DNA from: Vreelandella halophila
GTDB taxonomy: Bacteria; Pseudomonadota; Gammaproteobacteria; Pseudomonadales; Oleiphilaceae
Length of the DNA: 64,000 bases
Assembly: GCF_009856365.1 (NCBI RefSeq)
Contig: NZ_WMEX01000005.1
Location: 186,001 to 250,000 of the forward strand
Reading direction: 5' to 3'
Part shown: positions 5,496-20,157 of the stretch, piece by piece
How positions within the stretch are numbered: position 1 is the stretch's first letter
How the letters are laid out: each line of letters starts with the position of its first letter
Made by a program: the position numbers and the translations under genes
Notes under the pieces: generated by a model
What the model saw: only the letters and a program-made list of their open reading frames with translations
What the model was told of the DNA's origin: nothing
The model's database searches: none

Positions 5496-6674
5496 ATGAA
5501 GCTGTTTCTGGCGGTCGCCACCGTCACTGTCATGGGGCTGTTCCAGTCATCGCTGCTGGCAACCCTGCCCTGGATCATTGAACGCACTGGGCTGCCGCCC
5601 GTTTTCTGGTCGGTGCTGGTTGCCGCCAGCCTGATTCTGGTGGCCGTGAGCAGTCCGGTCTGGGGCCGGCGTACGGACAGCCATGGGGCCCTGCCGGTGA
5701 TGCGCCTCACCATGGGGCTGGTGGTGGTCTGCTATGGCCTGTTGATCCTGGCGATCCTTGCCCTGTCGTCTCCCTTCTGGATTGCGGTCATCGCCATCGC
5801 GACGCGCCTGGTCTACGGCATTGCCACTGGCGGCGTATTCCCCTCTGCCCAGCGTTTCGCGCTGGCGGACAAACCGGTTGCCCAGTGGCCGGAGACACTG
5901 GCCTACATCCAGGCCTCAACCCATGCCGGGCGCGTCATGGGTCCAGGCATCGTGGCGCTGGCGGCGATATGGAGCCTGCCGCTGGGGCTGGTCCTGATCG
6001 TCCTGCTGGGCGCGGCTCTGTGGCTCATGCAGTGGTACTTCGCAGCGGGCGTGGCCCCGGAGCCGTCCGGAAACCGTGAAAGCGCCGTGGCGCCGCCCTG
6101 GAACGAGGACTGGCCCCTGTATGCCCTTGGGTTCGTGATCACCCTCTGGGTGGGGCAACTCCAGTTTGCTCTGGGGCCCTACATCCAGAACCTGGCAGAC
6201 CTCGATTCGGTAACGGCCTCCCAGTGGACGGGGACGGTGCTGATGGTGGCATCGGTTTCCGCGGTCCTCGCCGGGCCCCTGGGGAACCGCTGGCTGTCGC
6301 CCATGCCCCGAATCCTGAGTGGCCTCTGGCTCGGCGTATTTACCCTGGGGGGCGTATTGCTGGCGGCTTCGTCCAGCGTGATCGGTGTGGGCGTAGCCGT
6401 GTGCCTGATCACCGCCGGGCTTACCCTAGCCGCCCCCTGGTACGGCAGCATCCTGCGGGCACGGCGCCCGGATGCCCAGGGCCAGGTCTCCGGGCGCCTG
6501 ATCAGTGTCCATACCATCGGTTTCGGCAGCGGCACGCTTTTCGGTGGCCTGATGCTGGAACTGGTGCCGGATCAGGCCATGGCTGCCTTCTATCTGCTGG
6601 GGCCGGTGGCGGGAACACTGGCGCTCATCCATCACCTGAGGGTTCGGGCAGGGACTGTTCCACCAACTGCCTGA
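5496..6674 (+). CDS. Major facilitator superfamily transporter
   Basis: Secondary transporter of 392 residues with 12 predicted membrane segments in two halves separated by a charged loop around residues 188-205 (SGNRESAVAPPWNED). The loop-2/3 motif is a variant of the MFS GxxxDxxGRR signature (GRRTDSHGALPVM, residues about 57-70). It lies downstream of carbonic anhydrase and converges on nasA, with the 3' ends overlapping by 50 bases. The overlap with nasA does not by itself make it a nitrate carrier; no NarK-type nitrate signature is visible. Substrate unknown. Start ATG 5496 with GGGAG upstream. Confidence 0.82.
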   Translation: MKLFLAVATVTVMGLFQSSLLATLPWIIERTGLPPVFWSVLVAASLILVAVSSPVWGRRTDSHGALPVMRLTMGLVVVCYGLLILAILALSSPFWIAVIAIATRLVYGIATGGVFPSAQRFALADKPVAQWPETLAYIQASTHAGRVMGPGIVALAAIWSLPLGLVLIVLLGAALWLMQWYFAAGVAPEPSGNRESAVAPPWNEDWPLYALGFVITLWVGQLQFALGPYIQNLADLDSVTASQWTGTVLMVASVSAVLAGPLGNRWLSPMPRILSGLWLGVFTLGGVLLAASSSVIGVGVAVCLITAGLTLAAPWYGSILRARRPDAQGQVSGRLISVHTIGFGSGTLFGGLMLELVPDQAMAAFYLLGPVAGTLALIHHLRVRAGTVPPTA

Positions 6675-9279
6675 GTTCTGGTACGCAGGAACCACAGTTG
6701 GTGCCACAGCCCAGGGCACCGCCGAGGGCGGATACCGAGTCACAGCCTTGCGCCAGAGCTTCCTCGATCCGGCGCTCGCCCACCTGGTAGCAGGAACAGA
6801 TGATGGGGCCGGGGTCTGGCTGGTCGCTGTCCCGGCCTGCCAGGACACGGCGCCGTGTACCGTCATCCAGTGGTTGCGTCTGGAAGAGGCTGTCCAGCCA
6901 GTCGAGGCCGGGGAAGTCATTCCCGGGTTCCACCAGCAGCACCGCCCGCAACCGATCGCCGTGATACCAGGCTGCCCGGTAGCGCCCGGTCCTGGAGTCC
7001 CGCATCTCCGAGTCAGGTTCCCCTCCGAGCCACTGGCGTGCGGTGCCGTGCCAGTCCGGGATGGGGCTGTTGCCGGCCAGGTGCCAGCAGGTCGTCTTCT
7101 CCATCGGTACCCGGGCCCAGTAGAGGCCTTCAGGCCACTGCTCCGGCTGTTCGCCCAGTAACCGGGCATGCCAGCGGGCGTTGAAGGGCAGCAGTGCGGC
7201 GCTGGCGTGCTTGGTTTCCGGCTGTCCGGAAAGCGGATCGATGACTCTGGGGAAAAGCGCGGAAGCCAGTCCGTTCGTGGTGAACTGGTGGTTCCAGTGG
7301 ATGGGCACGAATACCTCCCCCGGCCGCATACCGTCACTGGCCCTGGTTCGACCCAGGTACCGGCCCTGGCCGTTGCTGAGCCAGGCCAGGTCGCCATCCG
7401 CGAGATCGTGAGCTGCGAGGTCGTCCGGATGGACCTCGATAAACGGTTCACACAGGTGCTGGAGCAGACGCGCCGCGCGGCCCGTGCGGGTCATGGTATG
7501 CCACTGGTCGCGGATGCGGCCGCTGGTGACCCGCAGGGGGGTGGTTACCGTGGGCCCCCTTGCCGGTGCCGTGGGATGAATGGGGGTGAAACGGGCCCGA
7601 CCGTCCGGTGTGGGGAAGGCGCCATCCCCGAACAACCGCTCACGGCCACGGGGGTGTTCCGGTGTGACCGGCCACTGGACCGGCGTCATGGCGTTATAGT
7701 CGCGGTCGGAAAAGGCGGCAAGTGCACCCAGGTTGAACTGCTGTCGGGGGGCACCGGAAAGGGTCGAAGCCAGGGCGTGTTCCCGGAAGATCGCTGCGGG
7801 GCCGGCATAGTCAAACGCTGCATTGAATCCCATGGCCTGGGCCACGGCGCTGATGATCCACCAGTCCGGGCGTGCCTCGCCGACGGCCGGTATCAGGCCC
7901 CGCTGGCGCGAGATGCAGCGTTCGGAATTGGTAACGGTGCCGTCCTTCTCGGCCCAGCCCATGGCCGGCAGGGCGACATCCGCCAGGGCCAGGGTGTCAG
8001 TGTCGGCCACACAGTCCGAGACAATGACCAGCGGGCACTGGGTCAGTGCATGGCGTGCCCGCTCCGGGTCCGGGAGCGACACCAGCGGGTTGGTGGCCAT
8101 GATCCAGACGCACTGGATCTCACCGCGCTCCATGGCCTCAAAGAGGGCAACAGCCTTGTGCCCGGGCTCCGTGGGCAGGGATGGAGCCTGCCAGAAATGG
8201 GCGAGGGCCTCCCGTGCCCCAGGGGTGTCGTAGTCCATGTGTGCGGCCAGCTGATTGGCGAGCCCGCCGACCTCGCGTCCGCCCATGGCGTTGGGCTGGC
8301 CGGTCACGGAGAAGGGTGTGGCGCCGGGCTGGCCGATGCGGCCGGTGGCCAGGTGGCAGTTGATGATGGCGTTGGCCTTGTCCGTGCCGGAGCGGCTCTG
8401 GTTCAGCCCCTGGGACCAGAAGCTGGTGGTGCGCGGGGTCGCGGCGAACCATTCATAGAAGGTGCGGACGTCCGCCACAGTCAGGTCGCACTGGTCGGCG
8501 ACGGCTTCCGGGGTGGGTGAACTATCACGAGCTGCCTGAAGGGCGGCGTCAGGGCTGTTGCAGTGGGCGCCGATCCAGGCCTGATCCAGCGTGCCGGAAT
8601 CCGCGAGCCATACCAGAAGACCATTCCAGAGGATGGCGTCCGTTCCCGGCCGCAGGGGCAGATGCAGGTCAGCCTGCTCACAGGACGCGGTGCGCCGGGG
8701 ATCAATCACCACCATCCGCCGTTCGGGCCTGTTGTCGCCTGCCCTCTGCATACGCTGGTACAGGATGGGATGGTTCCAGGCTGGATTGGCGCCGGCAAGC
8801 ACCAGCAGGTCGGCCAGTTCCAGGTCCTCGTAGCAGCCCGGCACCGCGTCCTCGCCGAATGCACGCTTGTGGGCGGCAACCGCCGAGGACATGCACAGCC
8901 GTGAGTTGGTATCCACGTGTGGCGTGCCGATGAAGCCCTTGGCGAACTTGTTGGCCACGTAGTAATCCTCGGTGAGGAGCTGGCCGGAGAGGTAGAAGGC
9001 AATCGACTGGCCGCCCTGTTCCTGCTGCAGGCGGGTCAGTTCCGCGCCCAGGTACTGGATCGCCTCGTCCCAGTCCGCATCACGCCCCTGAATGCGCGGT
9101 CGGGTCAGCCGGCCCTGGGAACCGAGCGTTTCGTGCAAGGCGGACCCCTTCACGCACAGCCGCCCCGCGTTGGCAGGATGGTCCGGATCACCCTGGACCG
9201 GCTCGAGGGTGTCTTCCTTGATAGTGGCGTCGACACCGCAGCCGACGCCGCAGTAGGGGCATGTGGTTTTGCAGCCCAT
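6625..9279 (-). CDS. nasA: Assimilatory nitrate reductase, molybdopterin catalytic subunit with C-terminal [2Fe-2S] domain
   Basis: Cytoplasmic enzyme reducing nitrate to nitrite for assimilation. The 884-residue protein has an N-terminal 4Fe-4S site (C7, C10, C14, C42), bis-MGD molybdopterin oxidoreductase domains (about 45-560), a dinucleotide-binding domain (about 640-770), and a C-terminal BFD-like [2Fe-2S] domain with C828, C830, C862 and C865. That extra domain suits electron delivery from a flavoprotein, probably the one encoded at 15183. Start ATG 9279 is favoured over upstream in-frame codons because the 4Fe-4S motif begins six residues later and GGGAG lies upstream. It is transcribed divergently from nasTS under its own sigma-54/attenuator leader. 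Confidence 0.96.
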   Translation of the reverse strand: MGCKTTCPYCGVGCGVDATIKEDTLEPVQGDPDHPANAGRLCVKGSALHETLGSQGRLTRPRIQGRDADWDEAIQYLGAELTRLQQEQGGQSIAFYLSGQLLTEDYYVANKFAKGFIGTPHVDTNSRLCMSSAVAAHKRAFGEDAVPGCYEDLELADLLVLAGANPAWNHPILYQRMQRAGDNRPERRMVVIDPRRTASCEQADLHLPLRPGTDAILWNGLLVWLADSGTLDQAWIGAHCNSPDAALQAARDSSPTPEAVADQCDLTVADVRTFYEWFAATPRTTSFWSQGLNQSRSGTDKANAIINCHLATGRIGQPGATPFSVTGQPNAMGGREVGGLANQLAAHMDYDTPGAREALAHFWQAPSLPTEPGHKAVALFEAMERGEIQCVWIMATNPLVSLPDPERARHALTQCPLVIVSDCVADTDTLALADVALPAMGWAEKDGTVTNSERCISRQRGLIPAVGEARPDWWIISAVAQAMGFNAAFDYAGPAAIFREHALASTLSGAPRQQFNLGALAAFSDRDYNAMTPVQWPVTPEHPRGRERLFGDGAFPTPDGRARFTPIHPTAPARGPTVTTPLRVTSGRIRDQWHTMTRTGRAARLLQHLCEPFIEVHPDDLAAHDLADGDLAWLSNGQGRYLGRTRASDGMRPGEVFVPIHWNHQFTTNGLASALFPRVIDPLSGQPETKHASAALLPFNARWHARLLGEQPEQWPEGLYWARVPMEKTTCWHLAGNSPIPDWHGTARQWLGGEPDSEMRDSRTGRYRAAWYHGDRLRAVLLVEPGNDFPGLDWLDSLFQTQPLDDGTRRRVLAGRDSDQPDPGPIICSCYQVGERRIEEALAQGCDSVSALGGALGCGTNCGSCVPELRQLVEQSLPEPSGDG

Positions 9280-9301
9280 GATGGATGCTCCCTGAACAGA
9301 A

Positions 9302-9353
9302 GAAGCCCGGCCCCGGCACGGATTCGGTGCCGGTGACCGGGCTTCGGTACCCG
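9302..9353 (-). promoter_or_regulatory. nasA leader: ANTAR-type hexaloop overlapping a terminator-like hairpin
   Basis: In the nasA transcript a hairpin CGGGU-[ACCGAA]-GCCCG (9353-9338) has a six-base loop with A at position 1 and G at position 4, the signature of ANTAR-protein targets. Its 3' arm is also part of the 5' arm (9345-9337) of a long GC-rich hairpin ending at 9302, so the two folds exclude each other. The tract after the hairpin is only moderately U-rich (UUCUUCUGUU), so this terminator looks weaker than those of the other two leaders. I did not find a convincing first (P1) hexaloop between the likely transcription start and this hairpin. Confidence 0.55.
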
Positions 9354-9385: not shown

Positions 9386-9401
9386 AGCATTTCCCATGCC
9401 T
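9386..9401 (-). promoter_or_regulatory. Sigma-54 promoter of nasA
   Basis: On the minus strand AGGCATG-GGAA-ATGCT keeps the invariant GG and GC of a -24/-12 element at the correct 10-base separation. It lies about 107 bases upstream of the nasA start. It deviates from consensus at the first base and at -14. Its close resemblance to the two better sites upstream of nrtA and nirB supports it. Confidence 0.6.
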
Positions 9402-9479: not shown

Positions 9480-9579
9480 CTCGCTCCGTTGAAGCCGGCG
9501 ATTGAGACCGGTTTCATGGGCAAGGAGGCTGGCGTGGCTTTTGCTTCAGAATGGCGCGAATCGACGCTGGGGATGGAGC

Positions 9580-10206
9580 ATGTCGGCGGATCAGAGCGGT
9601 GTACGTGTCATGCTGGTGGACAACGAGCCGGAACGGGCAACGATGGTGTGCGACGCACTGACCTCCGAGGGCTACGAGGTGGTGGGGCAGCGCAGCAGCA
9701 CGCGTGGGCTCGTGGCAGCTGTTGCCCAGGAGGAGCCGGACGTGGTGATCATCGATATGGATTCACCGGACCGGGATACCCTCGAGTCCATGTCCGCCCT
9801 CAATGAGCACGCGCCCCGGCCGGTGGTGTTCTTCGCCAGTGATGACAGCGACAGCCATACGATCCAGCAGGCCGTTAACGCCGGCGTCAGTGCCTACATT
9901 GTGGACGGGCTTGAACAGCATCGGGTCAAGCCGATCGTGGAGGTGGCGGTGGCGCGTTTCGAGGCTTTCCAGTCACTGCGTCATCAGCTGGAGGAGACGC
10001 GGACGGCGCTGGAAGAGCGTAAGGACATCGAACGGGCCAAGGGGCTGGTGATGAAGCAGAACAACTGTTCGGAAGATGAGGCATTCCACAGCATGCGTAA
10101 ACTGGCGATGGATCGGAATCAGAAACTCAGCGAGGTGGCCCGCCAGCTGATTGAGGTACTGGGTGGGGCCGAAGGGGCGGGATCCCCGGAGGCAATGGAT
10201 GACTGA
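9580..10206 (+). CDS. nasT: NasT: response-regulator-like ANTAR RNA-binding antiterminator
   Basis: Positive regulator that binds hexaloop hairpins in nitrate-assimilation leader RNAs and prevents premature termination. The 208-residue protein has an N-terminal pseudo-receiver domain (about 8-125) and a C-terminal ANTAR domain (about 140-195) with the typical helical pattern RKDIERAKGLVMKQNNCSED. Start ATG 9580 is chosen for its GGGGA ribosome-binding site and the MSADQSG opening; an in-frame upstream start would add 26 weak residues. It overlaps nasS by eight bases. Its expected targets are the leaders at 9302-9353, 11553-11602 and 15100-15116. Confidence 0.93.
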   Translation: MSADQSGVRVMLVDNEPERATMVCDALTSEGYEVVGQRSSTRGLVAAVAQEEPDVVIIDMDSPDRDTLESMSALNEHAPRPVVFFASDDSDSHTIQQAVNAGVSAYIVDGLEQHRVKPIVEVAVARFEAFQSLRHQLEETRTALEERKDIERAKGLVMKQNNCSEDEAFHSMRKLAMDRNQKLSEVARQLIEVLGGAEGAGSPEAMDD

Positions 10207-11362
10207 CTGGATGCATGGTACGGAATCAAGTGAGACCATCCGGTTGGGATTCATCCCCCTGCTGGACGCCGCGCCCCTGATCATGGCTCAGGAGGCAGGC
10301 TTCTTCGCGGAGGAAGGGTTGGATGTCAGCCTGTATCGACAGCCCTCCTGGTCCAGTCTGCGGGATCGTGTCGGCGTTGGAATGCTGGATGGCGCCCAGA
10401 TGCTCGGGCCCATGGCCCTGGCCATCAATATGGGGCTCGGGGCGCCGCCGTGCCCGGTCATAAGCCCTATGGTGCTCAGCCGTAACGGCAATGCCATCAC
10501 GGCCAGGCGAGCGCTCTATGAGCAATTGACTTCTACCGGCTTCGATCTCTCCGAACCCTCGGAGGCGGCATGCGCCCTGGCGCGGGTCGTGGCGTCCAGC
10601 GATGAGCCGATCAGGCTGGGCATTGTCTACGCCTGGTCCACCCATTACCTGCAGCTGCTCGACTGGCTTGCCAGTGCTGGACTGTCGCCCGGCTCGGGTC
10701 TGGAGCTGGTAACGGTGCCGCCGCCGGAGATGATGACTGCACTGGCCTACGGCAGTGTTGATCTGGCCTGTGTCGGTGAGCCCTGGAATTCGCTGATGGA
10801 GTATCACGGGCTGGGCCAGATCCTGGCGACGGGGTGCCAGGTCTGGCAGAACGCGCCGGAGAAAGTCCTGGGCGTGCGCCGCGACTGGGCGCAGGCCAAC
10901 CCGGAAAAACTGCGTGCGTTGATGCGTGCCCTGGTCCGCTGCTGCCGCTGGCTGGATGACCCGGATAATCGCGAACTCGTCCACCGCATACTGGTGCACC
11001 CCCATTACCTCGGCAGTGCCATTGAGCCTCTCGGAGATCAGGGCGAAAGTCTCTTCCACCCCAGGGTCCAGCAGCACTTCTTTCGTCAGAGTGCGAACTT
11101 CCCGTGGCTCTCCCAGGCGCAATGGCTGCTGTCGCGTATGCGTCTGCGCAACCAGGGCGAGCAGCTGCTGGAGACACCGGATCTGGACAGCATTTTCCGT
11201 CCCGACCTCTACCGCAAGGTCGCGGAAAGCCTGAGTCTGGACGCGCCGATTATGGACTATAAGGACGAGGGGGAGCACCGTCAGCCCTTTGTGGTGGAAG
11301 GAGTCCGGGGGCAGGTTGAGGTAGCCCCGGATGCCCTGATCGCAACCGCCGGTCAGGACTGA
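10199..11362 (+). CDS. nasS: NasS: cytoplasmic nitrate/nitrite-sensing NrtA-like protein
   Basis: Paralogue of the periplasmic nitrate-binding protein NrtA encoded at 11657, but without a signal peptide (starts MTDWMHGTESSETIRLGFIP), so it should stay in the cytoplasm. In known NasS-NasT systems the ligand-free protein sequesters NasT and releases it when nitrate or nitrite binds. Shared signatures with NrtA include LGFIPLLDAAPL near residue 15 and the VGEPWN block near residue 195. It has 387 residues. The start ATG 10199 lies inside the end of nasT with GGAGG six bases upstream, consistent with stoichiometric co-production of sensor and antiterminator. Confidence 0.92.
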   Translation: MTDWMHGTESSETIRLGFIPLLDAAPLIMAQEAGFFAEEGLDVSLYRQPSWSSLRDRVGVGMLDGAQMLGPMALAINMGLGAPPCPVISPMVLSRNGNAITARRALYEQLTSTGFDLSEPSEAACALARVVASSDEPIRLGIVYAWSTHYLQLLDWLASAGLSPGSGLELVTVPPPEMMTALAYGSVDLACVGEPWNSLMEYHGLGQILATGCQVWQNAPEKVLGVRRDWAQANPEKLRALMRALVRCCRWLDDPDNRELVHRILVHPHYLGSAIEPLGDQGESLFHPRVQQHFFRQSANFPWLSQAQWLLSRMRLRNQGEQLLETPDLDSIFRPDLYRKVAESLSLDAPIMDYKDEGEHRQPFVVEGVRGQVEVAPDALIATAGQD

Positions 11363-11407
11363 TCCGCGCCGGTGCATGGGGGCTGCCTGATGCACCTGAT
11401 TCGGTCG
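11360..11407. promoter_or_regulatory. Candidate tandem NtrC sites upstream of nrtA
   Basis: TGATCC-N5-GGTGCA (11360-11376) is an NtrC-like dyad with a perfect right half. It is followed 14 bases later by TGCACC (11391-11396), a perfect left half whose partner is poor. The arrangement GGTGCA-N14-TGCACC recurs exactly upstream of the nirB promoter (14942-14967), at nearly the same distance from the sigma-54 element (101 versus 102 bases). Confidence 0.55.
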
Positions 11408-11471
11408 TGGATGATCATCTTCTGCGGGTCGGGTTCCATAAAAAGCCTTTAAAATCAGAATCAATGATCAG

Positions 11472-11487
11472 TGGCATGCTTCCTGCT
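11472..11487 (+). promoter_or_regulatory. Sigma-54 promoter of the nrtABD operon
   Basis: TGGCATG-CTTC-CTGCT fits the -24/-12 consensus, with GG and GC exactly ten bases apart. Transcription would begin near 11498, giving a leader of about 160 bases before nrtA. Confidence 0.75.
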
Positions 11488-11552
11488 TAGGCTTGGGTGT
11501 GCCACGGACAGGTTGACGGTTTGCCATGGCACGGACCGGCGTGGCGGCCGGG

Positions 11553-11602
11553 GTGCAGATGGAGCTGCACACCAGAACATGAATTGAAACGGCAAAGGCG
11601 CC
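11553..11602 (+). promoter_or_regulatory. Two-hairpin ANTAR (NasT) target in the nrtA leader
   Basis: The first hairpin (P1, 11553-11570) is GTGCAG-[ATGGAG]-CTGCAC: a perfect six-pair stem with an A1/G4 hexaloop. The second (P2, 11591-11602) is GGC-[AAAGGC]-GCC, again A1/G4, extended by one A-U pair across a bulged C. P2 shares the bases GCC with the 5' arm of the terminator at 11598, so P2 and terminator are alternatives. The linker between P1 and P2 is 20 bases. This matches the known ANTAR two-hairpin antitermination motif. Confidence 0.7.
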
Positions 11603-11634
11603 TGCTCCCGGACTGGGGGCAGGCGCTTTTTTTT
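11598..11634 (+). terminator. Intrinsic terminator (attenuator) in the nrtA leader
   Basis: GCGCCTGCTCCC pairs with GGGGGCAGGCGC through a five-base loop (one G-U pair) and is followed by eight T residues. It stands 22 bases before the nrtA start codon, within the untranslated leader rather than after a gene, which marks it as an attenuator. Confidence 0.85.
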
Positions 11635-11656
11635 GTTTGTTGCAGGGAGAAGTCCA

Positions 11657-13036
11657 ATGAACGGGAACAGGCGGACAGTGTCCGGAATCGGCGCGCTTCT
11701 TCTGGCGGGTCTTGTGAGTGCATTGCCGGCGGGGGCCGAGGAGATCGGCCCGGCCGAAAAGCCGGACCTCAAGCTGGGGTTCATCAAGCTGACCGACATG
11801 GCGCCGCTGGCCATTGCCAAGGAGAAGCACTTTTTCTTCGACGAGGGTCTTTTTGTGGACCTGGAAGCCCAGTCCAACTGGCGCGTCCTCCAGAATCGCG
11901 TGGCCCGGGGCGCGTTGGATGGCGCCCACATGCTCGCGGGCCAGCCCATCGGGGCCAGCATCGGGGTTGGCGGTAACAGCTCCGACATTGTGACGGCATT
12001 CAGCATGGACCTGAACGGTAATGCCATTACCGTTTCGAACGATGTCTGGGAGGCCATGCGCCCCCATGTGCCGAAGCGAGAGGACGGCAAACCTGCCCAC
12101 CCGATCAGTGCCGAGGCGCTTGCACCCGTTGTGGAATCGAGCCTGGACGAGGGCGAATCGTTCGACATGGGGATGGTTTATCCCCTCTCCACCCACAATT
12201 ACGAGATCCGTTACTGGCTGGCGGCTGGCGGGCTTCACCCCGGGTTCTACGAGCCGCTTGAGGGTGACAACAGCGGTCGCAGCGGAGCGGATGTCCGGCT
12301 TTCCGTGACGCCACCACCGCAGATGCCCTCCACCATGGAGGCCGGCACCATCCAGGGCTACTGCGTGGGCGAACCCTGGAACCAGCAGGCCGTTGCCAAG
12401 GGCATTGGCGTTCCCGTGGTCACCAACCATGACATCTGGCCCCACAACCCGGAGAAAGTCTTCGGCGTGACCCGGGAGTGGGCCGAAGAGAACCCGAACA
12501 CCCACCTGCGCGTGCTCCGGGCGCTGATCCGGGCAGCCCACTGGCTGGACGAGAACGGCAACGCCAATCGCGAGGAGGCGGTCGAGATCCTCTCGGGTTC
12601 CCGTTACGTGGGGGCGGACGAAGAGGTCATCGCCAACTCCATGACCGGGACCTTCGAGTATGAGCCGGGCGATGTGCGCGAGGAGCCGGACTTCAATGTC
12701 TTCTTCCGCCACAACGCCAACTACCCCTACTACAGCGATGCCATCTGGTTCATGACCCAGATGCGGCGCTGGGGCCAGATTTCCGAACGGAAGCCGGATG
12801 ACTGGTACATGAAGAAGGCGCGCGAAGTCTACAAACCCGCCATCTACGAGAAAGCGGCGCGCTCCCTGGTGGCGGACGGCACCCTGGAGGCCTCTGACTT
12901 CCCGGATTTCGAAGAGATCGACGGCTTCAAGCCGGTGCAGGACGACTTCATCGACGGCCGGGCCTACAACGGTCGCGAGCCCAATGCCTACATCAACAGT
13001 TTCGACATCGGCCTCAGCGGCGATGAAACGCCCTGA
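11657..13036 (+). CDS. nrtA: Nitrate/nitrite ABC transporter substrate-binding protein
   Basis: Periplasmic nitrate receptor of the importer encoded by this operon. The 459-residue precursor has a signal peptide (residues 1 to about 27, cleaving after AGA). The mature part begins [19 protein letters not shown], matching the NrtA fold, with the VGEPWNQQA block around residue 240 and the C-terminal RRWGQI segment typical of the family. ATG 11657 has CAGGGAG upstream; a TTG eight codons earlier lies just after the terminator T-tract and is less likely. Expression should depend on sigma-54/NtrC and NasT antitermination. Confidence 0.95.
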
Positions 13037-14941: not shown

Positions 14942-14978
14942 GGTGCATCAGCGCCCACGTGTGCACCAGCAGGGTTCC
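14942..14978. promoter_or_regulatory. Candidate NtrC sites upstream of the nirB operon
   Basis: GGTGCA-N14-TGCACC (14942-14967) repeats the arrangement upstream of nrtA. The right-hand TGCACC continues as TGCACC-N5-GGTTCC, an NtrC dyad with a perfect left half and four of six bases in the right half. It lies 102 bases upstream of the sigma-54 element. Confidence 0.5.
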
Positions 14979-15043
14979 AGTGACTCCCTTCCATCGACAT
15001 GCCTTTGTTTCCAGGTAGTTGATTCTGTTGGGGAGTAAGTGTT

Positions 15044-15059
15044 GGCACGCAACCTGCTT
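15044..15059 (+). promoter_or_regulatory. Sigma-54 promoter of the flavoprotein-nirBD operon
   Basis: TGGCACG-CAAC-CTGCT is a near-consensus -24/-12 element. Transcription would begin near 15070, giving a leader of about 113 bases. Confidence 0.8.
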
Positions 15060-15099
15060 CCTGAAGGGTGTGTCTGAGGACACGGACATTGCGAATCAA

Positions 15100-15116
15100 C
15101 AGGGCATTGGCGCCTG
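15100..15116 (+). promoter_or_regulatory. ANTAR (NasT) P2 hexaloop hairpin in the nirB-operon leader
   Basis: CAGGGC-[ATTGGC]-GCCTG forms a five-pair stem with one bulged G and an A1/G4 hexaloop. Its 3' arm GCCTG is part of the 5' arm of the terminator at 15109, so the two are mutually exclusive. The same core, GGCAxxGGCGCCTG, occurs in the nrtA leader with only two differing bases. The upstream hairpin that should be P1 (GTGTC-TGAG-GACAC, 15070-15083) is stable but its loop lacks the A1/G4 pattern. Confidence 0.65.
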
Positions 15117-15156
15117 ATCGGTCTTCCTTAAGGGAAGGTTGGCAGGCGCCTTTTTT
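15109..15156 (+). terminator. Intrinsic terminator (attenuator) in the nirB-operon leader
   Basis: GGCGCCTG (15109-15116) pairs perfectly with CAGGCGCC (15143-15150), with an inner CTTCC/GGAAG stem, and is followed by six T residues. It lies 26 bases before the first gene, inside the untranslated leader. Confidence 0.85.
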
Positions 15157-19503: not shown

Positions 19504-20157
19504 ATGAAATTGAACCCGATTCGCCAATCCCTAATCGCTGCCCTTTCCATCAGTGTCATTGGCGCAGCTGCCCCTGCTTTGGCCTACGACAAGGGTGACA
19601 CCATTGTCCGTGGCGGTATTGCCAGCGTGGTGCCCGGTGGCAGTTATTCCTCCGTCGCGGGAGGTAAATTTGATCTTCGCGCGGATTCAGACATCCAAGC
19701 GGGCGCCAGCATCAGCTATATGATGACGGACAACATGAGTGTGAACCTGCTGGCTGCCACGCCTTTTGAGCATGATATTGAAGCGAGTGGCGGCACCAAC
19801 ATCGGGTCCACCAAGCATCTGCCTCCGACGGTGACGGTTTCCTGGTTCCCGCTGGCCGGCCAGGATCTTGGGTTTAAGCCCTATGTTGGGGCAGGCGTGA
19901 ACTATACAACGTTCTGGGATGAAAAACTGAACAGTACTGGTAAAGGTGCAACTAAAGCGCAGAATCTGAGCCTGGACGATTCTGTTGGTCTCGCTGCCCA
20001 GGTAGGTGTAGATGTACCCCTCGATGAAAACTGGAGTGTTGGTGCAGCAGCCTATTATGCGAATATTGAGACGGATGCGGAACTTGATGGTAACGGCATC
20101 GGTACGGTGGAGATTGATCCCATGATCTACCGCCTGCACGTCGGCTACAGCTTCTGA
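19504..20157 (+). CDS. ompW: OmpW family outer-membrane beta-barrel protein
   Basis: Small eight-stranded outer-membrane porin of 217 residues. A signal peptide covers residues 1 to about 27 (cleaving after ALA). The mature part alternates polar and aromatic residues and ends in a C-terminal phenylalanine (HVGYSF), the outer-membrane insertion signal. FKPYVGAGVNYTTFW near residues 120-135 is typical of OmpW. OmpW genes in other gammaproteobacteria are FNR-controlled, which agrees with the site at 19406. Codon use is more AT-rich than in neighbouring genes, perhaps from high expression or transfer. Confidence 0.9.
   Translation: MKLNPIRQSLIAALSISVIGAAAPALAYDKGDTIVRGGIASVVPGGSYSSVAGGKFDLRADSDIQAGASISYMMTDNMSVNLLAATPFEHDIEASGGTNIGSTKHLPPTVTVSWFPLAGQDLGFKPYVGAGVNYTTFWDEKLNSTGKGATKAQNLSLDDSVGLAAQVGVDVPLDENWSVGAAAYYANIETDAELDGNGIGTVEIDPMIYRLHVGYSF

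Follow-up and report, generated by a model that had tools for sequence, protein, structure and literature searches.

According to the available text of PMC7496416, the NasR leader and the ligands obtained by systematic evolution of ligands by exponential enrichment (SELEX) have two hairpins, the loops of which carry A at position 1 and G at position 4 (A1/G4) above closing C:G pairs. In Paracoccus denitrificans, as far as the accessible part of PMC5424462 describes it, nasTS precede the operon, and the gap between nasS and nasA holds hairpins of which one is required for induction. Here we describe the leader of nrtA in a nitrate-assimilation cluster of Vreelandella halophila, contained in a stretch of 64,000 nucleotides (nt) that we call the window (contig NZ_WMEX01000005.1, positions 186,001-250,000, assembly GCF_009856365.1). 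The plus strand of the window carries, in order, nasT, nasS, nrtA, nrtB, nrtC, a nasB-like reductase gene (15183) and a nirB-like nitrite reductase gene (16425), and the leader region, 11363-11656, is the gap between nasS and nrtA. An initial annotation had read this gap as a complete switch, in which an NtrC/sigma-54 promoter is joined to an ANTAR antitermination motif of two A1/G4 hexaloop hairpins.

We conclude that the nrtA leader is, very probably, an attenuator at which NasT acts by antitermination, placed behind an NtrC/sigma-54 promoter. We read it so because the only ANTAR match in the assembly (3.34 Mb, completeness rating 96.9%) is NasT, encoded beside the leader; a receiver-ANTAR protein and an NrtA-like sensor here adjoin nitrate assimilation genes, as in a NasS-NasT system, and in close relatives too a nasS orthologue follows nasT. 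The promoter, the half-sites upstream of it, the downstream hexaloop hairpin (P2) and the terminator are all present, and they are conserved. In promoter, P2 and terminator the leader is ordinary for NasT attenuators, and the switch is of a known kind. The question concerns the upstream hairpin at 11553-11570, which stands in the place of P1, the first of the two hairpins. We assign a probability of about 0.75 to the reading in which a NasT attenuator follows an NtrC/sigma-54 promoter, the upstream hairpin is likelier not a canonical P1, and the leaders of this genus and its sister genera would rely on P2. The elements named in the initial annotation all lie where it had put them or within a base or two, namely nasTS immediately upstream, the sigma-54 element at 11472, NtrC-like dyads, the two A1/G4 hexaloops (both exact) and an eight-U terminator that reuses P2 in its 5' arm. 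Its promoter and its NasT attenuator are supported; its description of the dual-hexaloop motif as complete is not, on account of the closing pair, the linker and the covariance model discussed below.

The sample behind these statements is defined as follows. The genus of the window, g1, is represented by the window and L032-L035 (five members). The sister genera g2, g12, g13 and g15 belong to the same family and have NasTs approximately 52-68% identical to that of the window. A further 16 leaders, termed the other leaders, comprise 11 from other families or orders and five (L059, L060, L061, L065 and L067) from the same-family genera g4 and g14, with more distant NasTs. The nrtA set contains 33 leaders including the window, drawn from 35 after exclusion of L050 and L087, which have no assignable terminator; L069-L073, from the same genomes as L032-L036, are not among the 35. 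Seventeen loci that failed an automatic leader test were omitted from the shuffle counts of P1 and of ANGGA motifs (sets of 27, 10 and 33 leaders), six of them being restored for the count of GGA hairpins before nasB (39 leaders), and identical leaders were counted once in both kinds of count. A P2-like hexaloop is still visible in 15 of the 17, including L055, L064, L065, L068 and L095, as well as L186, in which the first loop position is G; none is visible in L067 or in the truncated locus L166.

Scored against the sigma-54 element consensus, sites that reach at least 10 of 12 positions with GG and GC correctly spaced occur on the two strands of the window only at 9530 (before nasT), 11472 (nrtA) and 15043 (nasB). 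A site of at least 10/12 is found in 27 of the 33 nrtA leaders, the window's own included, while the remainder score 9 (L032, L059 and L065) or have a lower score or none (L055, L064 and L068). Across the genome the strict pattern TGGCAYGNNNNYTGCW occurs 10 times, against twice for a reversed control; rpoN is present, and an ntrC match lies above its family cut-off. The element before nrtA thus has the conservation, the GG/GC spacing and the genomic setting (rpoN and ntrC) of a sigma-54 promoter, and would place the start of the RNA at about 11498. A scan of 11300-11700 for sigma-70 promoters found none.

The consensus for NtrC is TGCACCN5GGTGCA. Fourteen NtrC-like sites on the two strands of the window score 10/12, so the score of the site at 11360-11376 is weak by itself. 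A 10/12 site is nevertheless centred 104-116 bp upstream of the -24 element in all five genus members, and a site of at least 10/12 is found in 34 of 92 upstream regions against 1.0 expected from shuffles, although these sequences are related and do not amount to 92 independent tests. The half-site pair GGTGCA-N14-TGCACC occurs exactly at only two places in the assembly (11371 and 14942), each starting 101 bp upstream of the sigma-54 element, of nrtA in one case and of nasB in the other. With up to one mismatch allowed it is found at 16 places, compared with 18 in the control, so that only the exact pairs are informative. The pair is kept in L032, L033, L130, L131 and L132, and not in L034, L035 or L133. 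We considered and rejected the idea that it is a single palindromic NtrC site, since GGTGCA precedes TGCACC, the opposite of the consensus; the two half-sites may instead belong, as inner halves, to a pair of NtrC sites approximately 31 bp apart. What the enhancer region offers is one 10/12 site and a half-site, not two full sites.

A1/G4 hexaloops on at least three pairs are common in the window (116 per strand in 64 kb), so that a single one means little. Their recurrence at the P2 place of nrtA leaders, together with the overlap with the terminator, is not chance: all of the 33 leaders but L067, thus 32, have an A1/G4 hexaloop 25-70 nt upstream of the T run, which is closed by C:G in 30 and by U:G in two and overlaps the computed terminator arm in 30 (the exceptions being L037, L067 and L095). 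The P2 of the window has what is looked for in a dual-hexaloop ANTAR leader, as an A1/G4 loop closed by C:G that overlaps the 5' arm of the terminator, and P2 and the terminator are mutually exclusive. Folded freely, the RNA 11498-11633 reaches -64.7 kcal/mol with the terminator, while enforcing P1 and P2 gives -54.2 kcal/mol; given this cost of 10.5 kcal/mol, the default state is predicted to be off. In the prefixes of the leader RNA that were tested, P1 has a probability of at least 0.95 and P2 of at most 0.043, suggesting that P2 would need NasT.

Taken together with the systems of Klebsiella oxytoca, Azotobacter, Pseudomonas putida and Paracoccus, this anatomy points to a dual input of nitrogen limitation and nitrate. 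Nitrogen limitation would act through phosphorylated NtrC to start the RNA. With nitrate absent, NasS would hold NasT and the terminator would halt the RNA before nrtA; with nitrate present, NasT would be released and bind the P2 hexaloop, and the terminator would be kept open.

Table 1. Positions in the window of the nrtA leader elements, the further leaders of the cluster and the adjoining genes
Feature	Position	Strand	Remarks
NtrC-like site TGATCCGCGCCGGTGCA	11360-11376	+	10/12 of consensus
Half-site pair GGTGCA-N14-TGCACC	11371-11396	.	exact match; conserved in near relatives
Sigma-54 -24/-12 element TGGCATGCTTCCTGCT	11472-11487	+	10/12 positions; conserved in near relatives
5' hairpin of leader RNA	11498-11533	+	-13.6 kcal/mol
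ANGGA motif 1 (ACGGA)	11504-11508	+	position +7, inside 5' hairpin
ANGGA motif 2 (ACGGA)	11531-11535	+	position +34, end of first hairpin and following gap
Second hairpin CCGGC-GTGGCG-GCCGG	11536-11551	+	hexaloop G1/G4, not A1/G4
P1 hairpin gtgcag-ATGGAG-ctgcac	11553-11570	+	-7.8 kcal/mol; A1/G4, closing G:C, ANGGAN loop
ANGGA motif 3 (ATGGA)	11559-11563	+	position +62, P1 loop
P2 antiterminator hexaloop ggc-AAAGGC-gcc	11591-11602	+	A1/G4, closing C:G
Intrinsic terminator	11594-11634	+	5' arm shared with P2; stem ~11594-11630, taking in first Ts of eight-T run 11627-11634
Half-site pair GGTGCA-N14-TGCACC before nasB promoter	14942-14967	.	exact pair
Sigma-54 element of nasB leader TGGCACGCAACCTGCT	15043-15058	+	11/12
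nasB-leader hairpin at P1 position	15070-15089	+	loop AGGACA in predicted fold, no A1/G4
nasB-leader P2 gggc-ATTGGC-gcct	15102-15115	+	from looser hexaloop scan (L129), predicted fold and relatives; missed by strict scan
nasB-leader terminator, then TTTTTT	15109-15150	+	predicted fold
Sigma-54-like AGGCATGGGAAATGCT before third leader	9386-9401	-	by eye; below 10/12
Third leader (probable), P2 cgggt-ACCGAA-gcccg	9353-9338	-	before divergent nitrate reductase gene; leader 9294-9353
Third-leader terminator stem, weak tail TTCTTCTG	9345-9302	-	weak U run in window
nasT	9580-10206	+	receiver + ANTAR (Pfam PF00072 and PF03861)
nasS, NrtA-like nitrate sensor, partner of NasT	10196-11362	+	PF13379 (NMT1_2), E 2.8e-69
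nrtA, nitrate-binding protein of ATP-binding cassette (ABC) transporter	11657-13036	+	PF13379, E 4.1e-90; first gene after leader

The upstream hairpin has a stem of at least three pairs and an A1/G4 hexaloop, as a P1 should. All five genus members have G:C as its closing pair, not the C:G of the NasR SELEX ligands, and its linker to P2, 20 nt in the window, lies outside the 5-12 nt shown to work in eut; across the genus the linkers are 20, 20, 22, 39 and 49 nt and the loops ATGGAG, AAGGAA, AAGGAG, AGGGAC and AGGGAA. An A1/G4 P1 candidate, taken as a hairpin of at least four pairs no more than 50 nt from P2, is present in 13 of the 16 other leaders; in every one of these 13, C:G or U:G closes one or more of the candidates, and in 11 of them a candidate lies no farther than 14 nt from P2. 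Leaders of the sister genera have a candidate in three of 12 cases, at 31, 43 and 47 nt. Counted within 45 nt of P2, an A1/G4 P1 is present in two of 27 distinct nrtA leaders of g12, g13 and g15 (0.73 expected, near chance) and in eight of 10 other leaders (0.41 expected). These counts suggest that the canonical P1 has been lost; a loss across the whole family was rejected, given the canonical P1 of the same-family g4/g14 leaders L060, L061 and L065. In the genus and its sister genera, then, NasT leaders seem to rely on P2, the place of P1 being held by other hairpins, some with GGA at the loop.

The initial annotation had looked to a covariance-model match over 11553-11602 for support. Rfam 15 gave no match in the window at gathering level and, at expectation values (E) up to 10, no ANTAR-named family among 15 weak matches in 11360-11700, and so decides nothing here. 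Our own model, R1, was built from the P1-P2 segments of 10 other dual-hexaloop nas leaders with short linkers. Run on 45 loci, it returned 25 matches at E of 1 or below, consisting of the 10 training sequences and 15 matches in 12 other loci, in six of which (L086, L088, L081, L083, L075 and L090) the best match lies behind nasT or nasS. It gave no match at that level in the 16 loci L032-L044 and L046-L048, from the genus and its sister genera. In the window it covers 11584-11602 only, matching the P2 half and leaving P1 unmatched (12.9 bits, E 0.0018 in 181 bases). We take the upstream hairpin to be real and lean slightly towards its being no canonical ANTAR P1.

Several observations weigh against this reading. 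Having been trained on short linkers, R1 penalises one of 20 nt; over 64 kb its match to P2 falls short of significance (E 0.63), ranking second to 19570-19609, and its search of the genome did not return the leaders of the window, the sole match, elsewhere and at E 1.14, not being credible. Upstream of P2, each of the five genus nrtA leaders has a hairpin with an A1/G4 hexaloop on a stem of 6-8 bp, in four of them within 45 nt where 0.36 would be expected, and such retention of loop and stem is the behaviour expected of a functional P1. L034 has an extra A1/G4 hairpin at 12 nt, closed by U:A. The NasT of the genus retains the MDRN stretch of canonical NasTs, while the aligned relatives without P1 mostly have MDHS or MEHS there. 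Finally, the A1/G4 P1s of L051 and L068 are found only at 47 and 38 nt, for which reason linker length alone was rejected as disproof of a P1.

The same observations give some weight to the alternative that P1 and P2 together act as a functional dual-hexaloop ANTAR site in which the closing pair is relaxed and the linker longer, to which we allow a chance somewhat short of even. It would account for A1 and G4 being kept on stable stems in all five genus members, with one compensatory pair change (L035 against the rest), for the canonical MDRN stretch, and for long-linker P1s elsewhere (L051 and L068). It must contend with the G:C closing pair found five times out of five, against C:G in NasR SELEX (PMC7496416, in the part available), and with results given in the accessible text of PMC3369931, where altered closing pairs disrupted eutP induction and a eutP linker of 14 nt drastically cut induction in vivo; adding 20 nt abolished antitermination in vitro in the corresponding part of PMC8934654. 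Nor does it account for the drift of the genus linkers from 20 to 49 nt, for G3 and A5 of the P1 loop being fixed as well, which is no known ANTAR requirement, or for the absence of an A1/G4 P1 from the nasB leaders of the genus (0/5).

NasT itself has as its best solved relative 6wsh, a response regulator identified as EutV by PMC8934654, from the available text of which the EutV residue roles and numbering are taken. In the alignment NasT has Phe at the RNA-stacking Tyr of EutV and keeps the Met, and its receiver has VDG in place of the EutV VKP, which would fit control by NasS and not by phosphorylation. In the sister-genus NasTs L009-L019, L116 and L117, AMDHS or AMEHS stands in place of the ANTAR-domain stretch AMDRN, and most of their nrtA leaders are without an A1/G4 P1; a co-change of the two is possible.

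A second alternative concerns CsrA/RsmA. The P1 loop has the form ANGGAN in all five genus members, which is the RsmE hexaloop consensus (available text of PMC7652899), and as GGA in a hairpin loop it is what a CsrA/RsmA target should present. The ANGGA hairpins, that is, P1 and the two further ANGGA motifs of the leader, might thus be CsrA/RsmA sites adding a third input of carbon status or growth phase, a proposal that we find doubtful. The genome has csrA. ANGGA occurs 13 times in the five genus nrtA leaders against 2.8 expected, seven times in three dissimilar genus representatives against 1.95 (a level reached in three of 2000 shuffles), three times in the window alone against 0.67 (35 of 2000 shuffles) and 14 times in nasB representatives of other genera against 5.47 (one of 2000 shuffles), and it is the most frequent arrangement of A, A, G, G and N in both sets; the motif was, however, chosen after the sequences had been viewed. 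No excess is seen in nrtA leaders of g12, g13 and g15 (two against 6.1 expected) or in the other leaders (two against 4.4), and barely any in the nasB leaders of the genus (three against 1.6). The closing G:C is also at odds with CsrA SELEX ligands, in most of which AC is paired with GU, and at 6 bp the stem of P1 exceeds most of theirs (both from the part of PMC7652899 available), while two of the three motifs in the window lie wholly or partly within predicted stems.

Further evidence on this point comes from the nasB leaders of g2, g11, g12, g13, g15 and g16. Of 39 distinct leaders, 33 have a hairpin 16-22 nt upstream of P2, and the best hairpin has GGA in or at its loop in 33 of the 39, though not in a wholly identical set, at loop sizes of 3-8 by program pairing. 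That GGA is retained while loop size varies is the pattern expected of a CsrA/RsmA site, and many of these leaders have a second YARGGA or CAGGA, seen by eye, near the inferred RNA start. A strict A1/G4 hexaloop occurs in one of the 39 hairpins, a separate count giving three of 33 against 1.45 expected. In an alignment of 18 hand-picked hairpins, three of six stem pairs show double changes; the number of cells with double changes, nine against 3.1 when shuffled, was reached in none of 500 shuffles, while the number of double-change pairs was reached in 63 of 500, and further pair types are not in excess. A search of the literature, with subscription journals mostly outside its coverage, found no paper joining CsrA, 'nitrate assimilation' and leader, and none on CsrA at nas leaders among the further titles listed.

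CsrA/RsmA sites may perhaps have replaced P1. A fuller scheme, which we think improbable, would have NasT, or NasR where NasT is absent, use a single conserved P2 hexaloop throughout the genus and its sister genera. The ANTAR loop of P1 would have been lost and, in a single leader per lineage (that of nrtA in the genus, that of nasB in the others), a GGA hairpin recruiting CsrA/RsmA would have taken the place of P1, giving three inputs: nitrogen limitation, nitrate and CsrA status. Least probable of all, at about one chance in ten, is that P1 is a mere spacer or structural hairpin the loop of which contacts the C-rich upper part of the terminator 5' arm. The GGAGC of the loop does complement GCUCC in that arm, as by eye GGGA does UCCC in L034 and L035, but only three such pairs are left in L032, and by eye C-rich arms are found in many terminators, including those of leaders with no GGA loop.

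The nasB leaders also showed two features of their own. Those of genomes with no NasT match (L187-L194 and L200-L202) have the same anatomy, and in the three such genomes looked at (G065, G014 and G067) a NIT-ANTAR (NasR-type) gene lies within approximately 4 kb of nasB; the regulator may have been exchanged over a retained leader. In L136-L151 and similar leaders GCCGGACCATC occurs twice, on the 3' side of the GGA hairpin and in the terminator 5' arm, so that this side of the hairpin could pair alternatively with the 3' arm of the terminator.

The nrtA leader does not stand alone in the cluster. A second NasT-type leader precedes nasB at 15043-15156, and a probable third precedes the molybdopterin nitrate-reductase-like gene at 6625-9279 on the minus strand, divergent from the nasT side of the cluster. 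At the place of this third leader a P2-like A1/G4 hexaloop is found in eight relatives (L112 and L113 by program, six by eye), six of which have a T run of at least six. It is thus probable that two or three leaders within the cluster are targets of NasT.

Three other observations were made among the leaders compared. Close to the inferred RNA start, L046-L048, several of L165-L176 and the nasB leaders L105-L108 resemble one another in sequence, with AGACGATCTTGC in nrtA leaders and AGGACGACTTGC in some of those of nasB. L060 and L063 have three consecutive A1/G4 hexaloops before the terminator, as if P1 had been doubled. In L042 the distance from the sigma-54 element to the T run is 275 nt, and the hairpin found at 31 nt in L041 is far upstream, as if by an insertion before P2.

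What makes these leaders interesting is that several genera depart from the two-hairpin rule, and that GGA hairpins are present. ANTAR targets are in practice defined by this rule, and genomes are searched with it; if only P2 follows it in several genera, such searches would overlook real targets, and these genera would offer natural material for studying the purpose of P1. Binding of CsrA to the GGA hairpins, if it occurs, would couple nitrate assimilation to the carbon-storage regulator within the very RNA that carries the nitrate switch.

Set beside known systems, the locus resembles nasF and NasR of K. oxytoca in having an Ntr-dependent nitrate operon controlled by antitermination in an ANTAR leader, with a hexaloop at the 5' base of the terminator; NasR, as far as the available account goes, is a one-component NIT-ANTAR protein, whereas here NasT works with a separate NasS and P1 is off-consensus. 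With Azotobacter, P. putida and P. denitrificans it shares a NasT antiterminator and a NasS nitrate sensor. For P. denitrificans one leader, that of nasA, is treated in the accessible part of PMC5424462, in contrast to the two or three per cluster here, each with a sigma-54-like element. As in the eut system of Enterococcus faecalis, regulated by EutV, the P2 hexaloop overlaps an arm of the terminator, but there the linker is 5-12 nt and both hexaloops are required (available text of PMC3369931), compared with 20 nt here. To CsrA/RsmA sites with ANGGAN hairpins the likeness lies in the ANGGAN hexaloop of P1 and the repeated ANGGA motifs; the closing pair and the accessibility of the motifs are less than ideal here, and in this leader such sites are putative.

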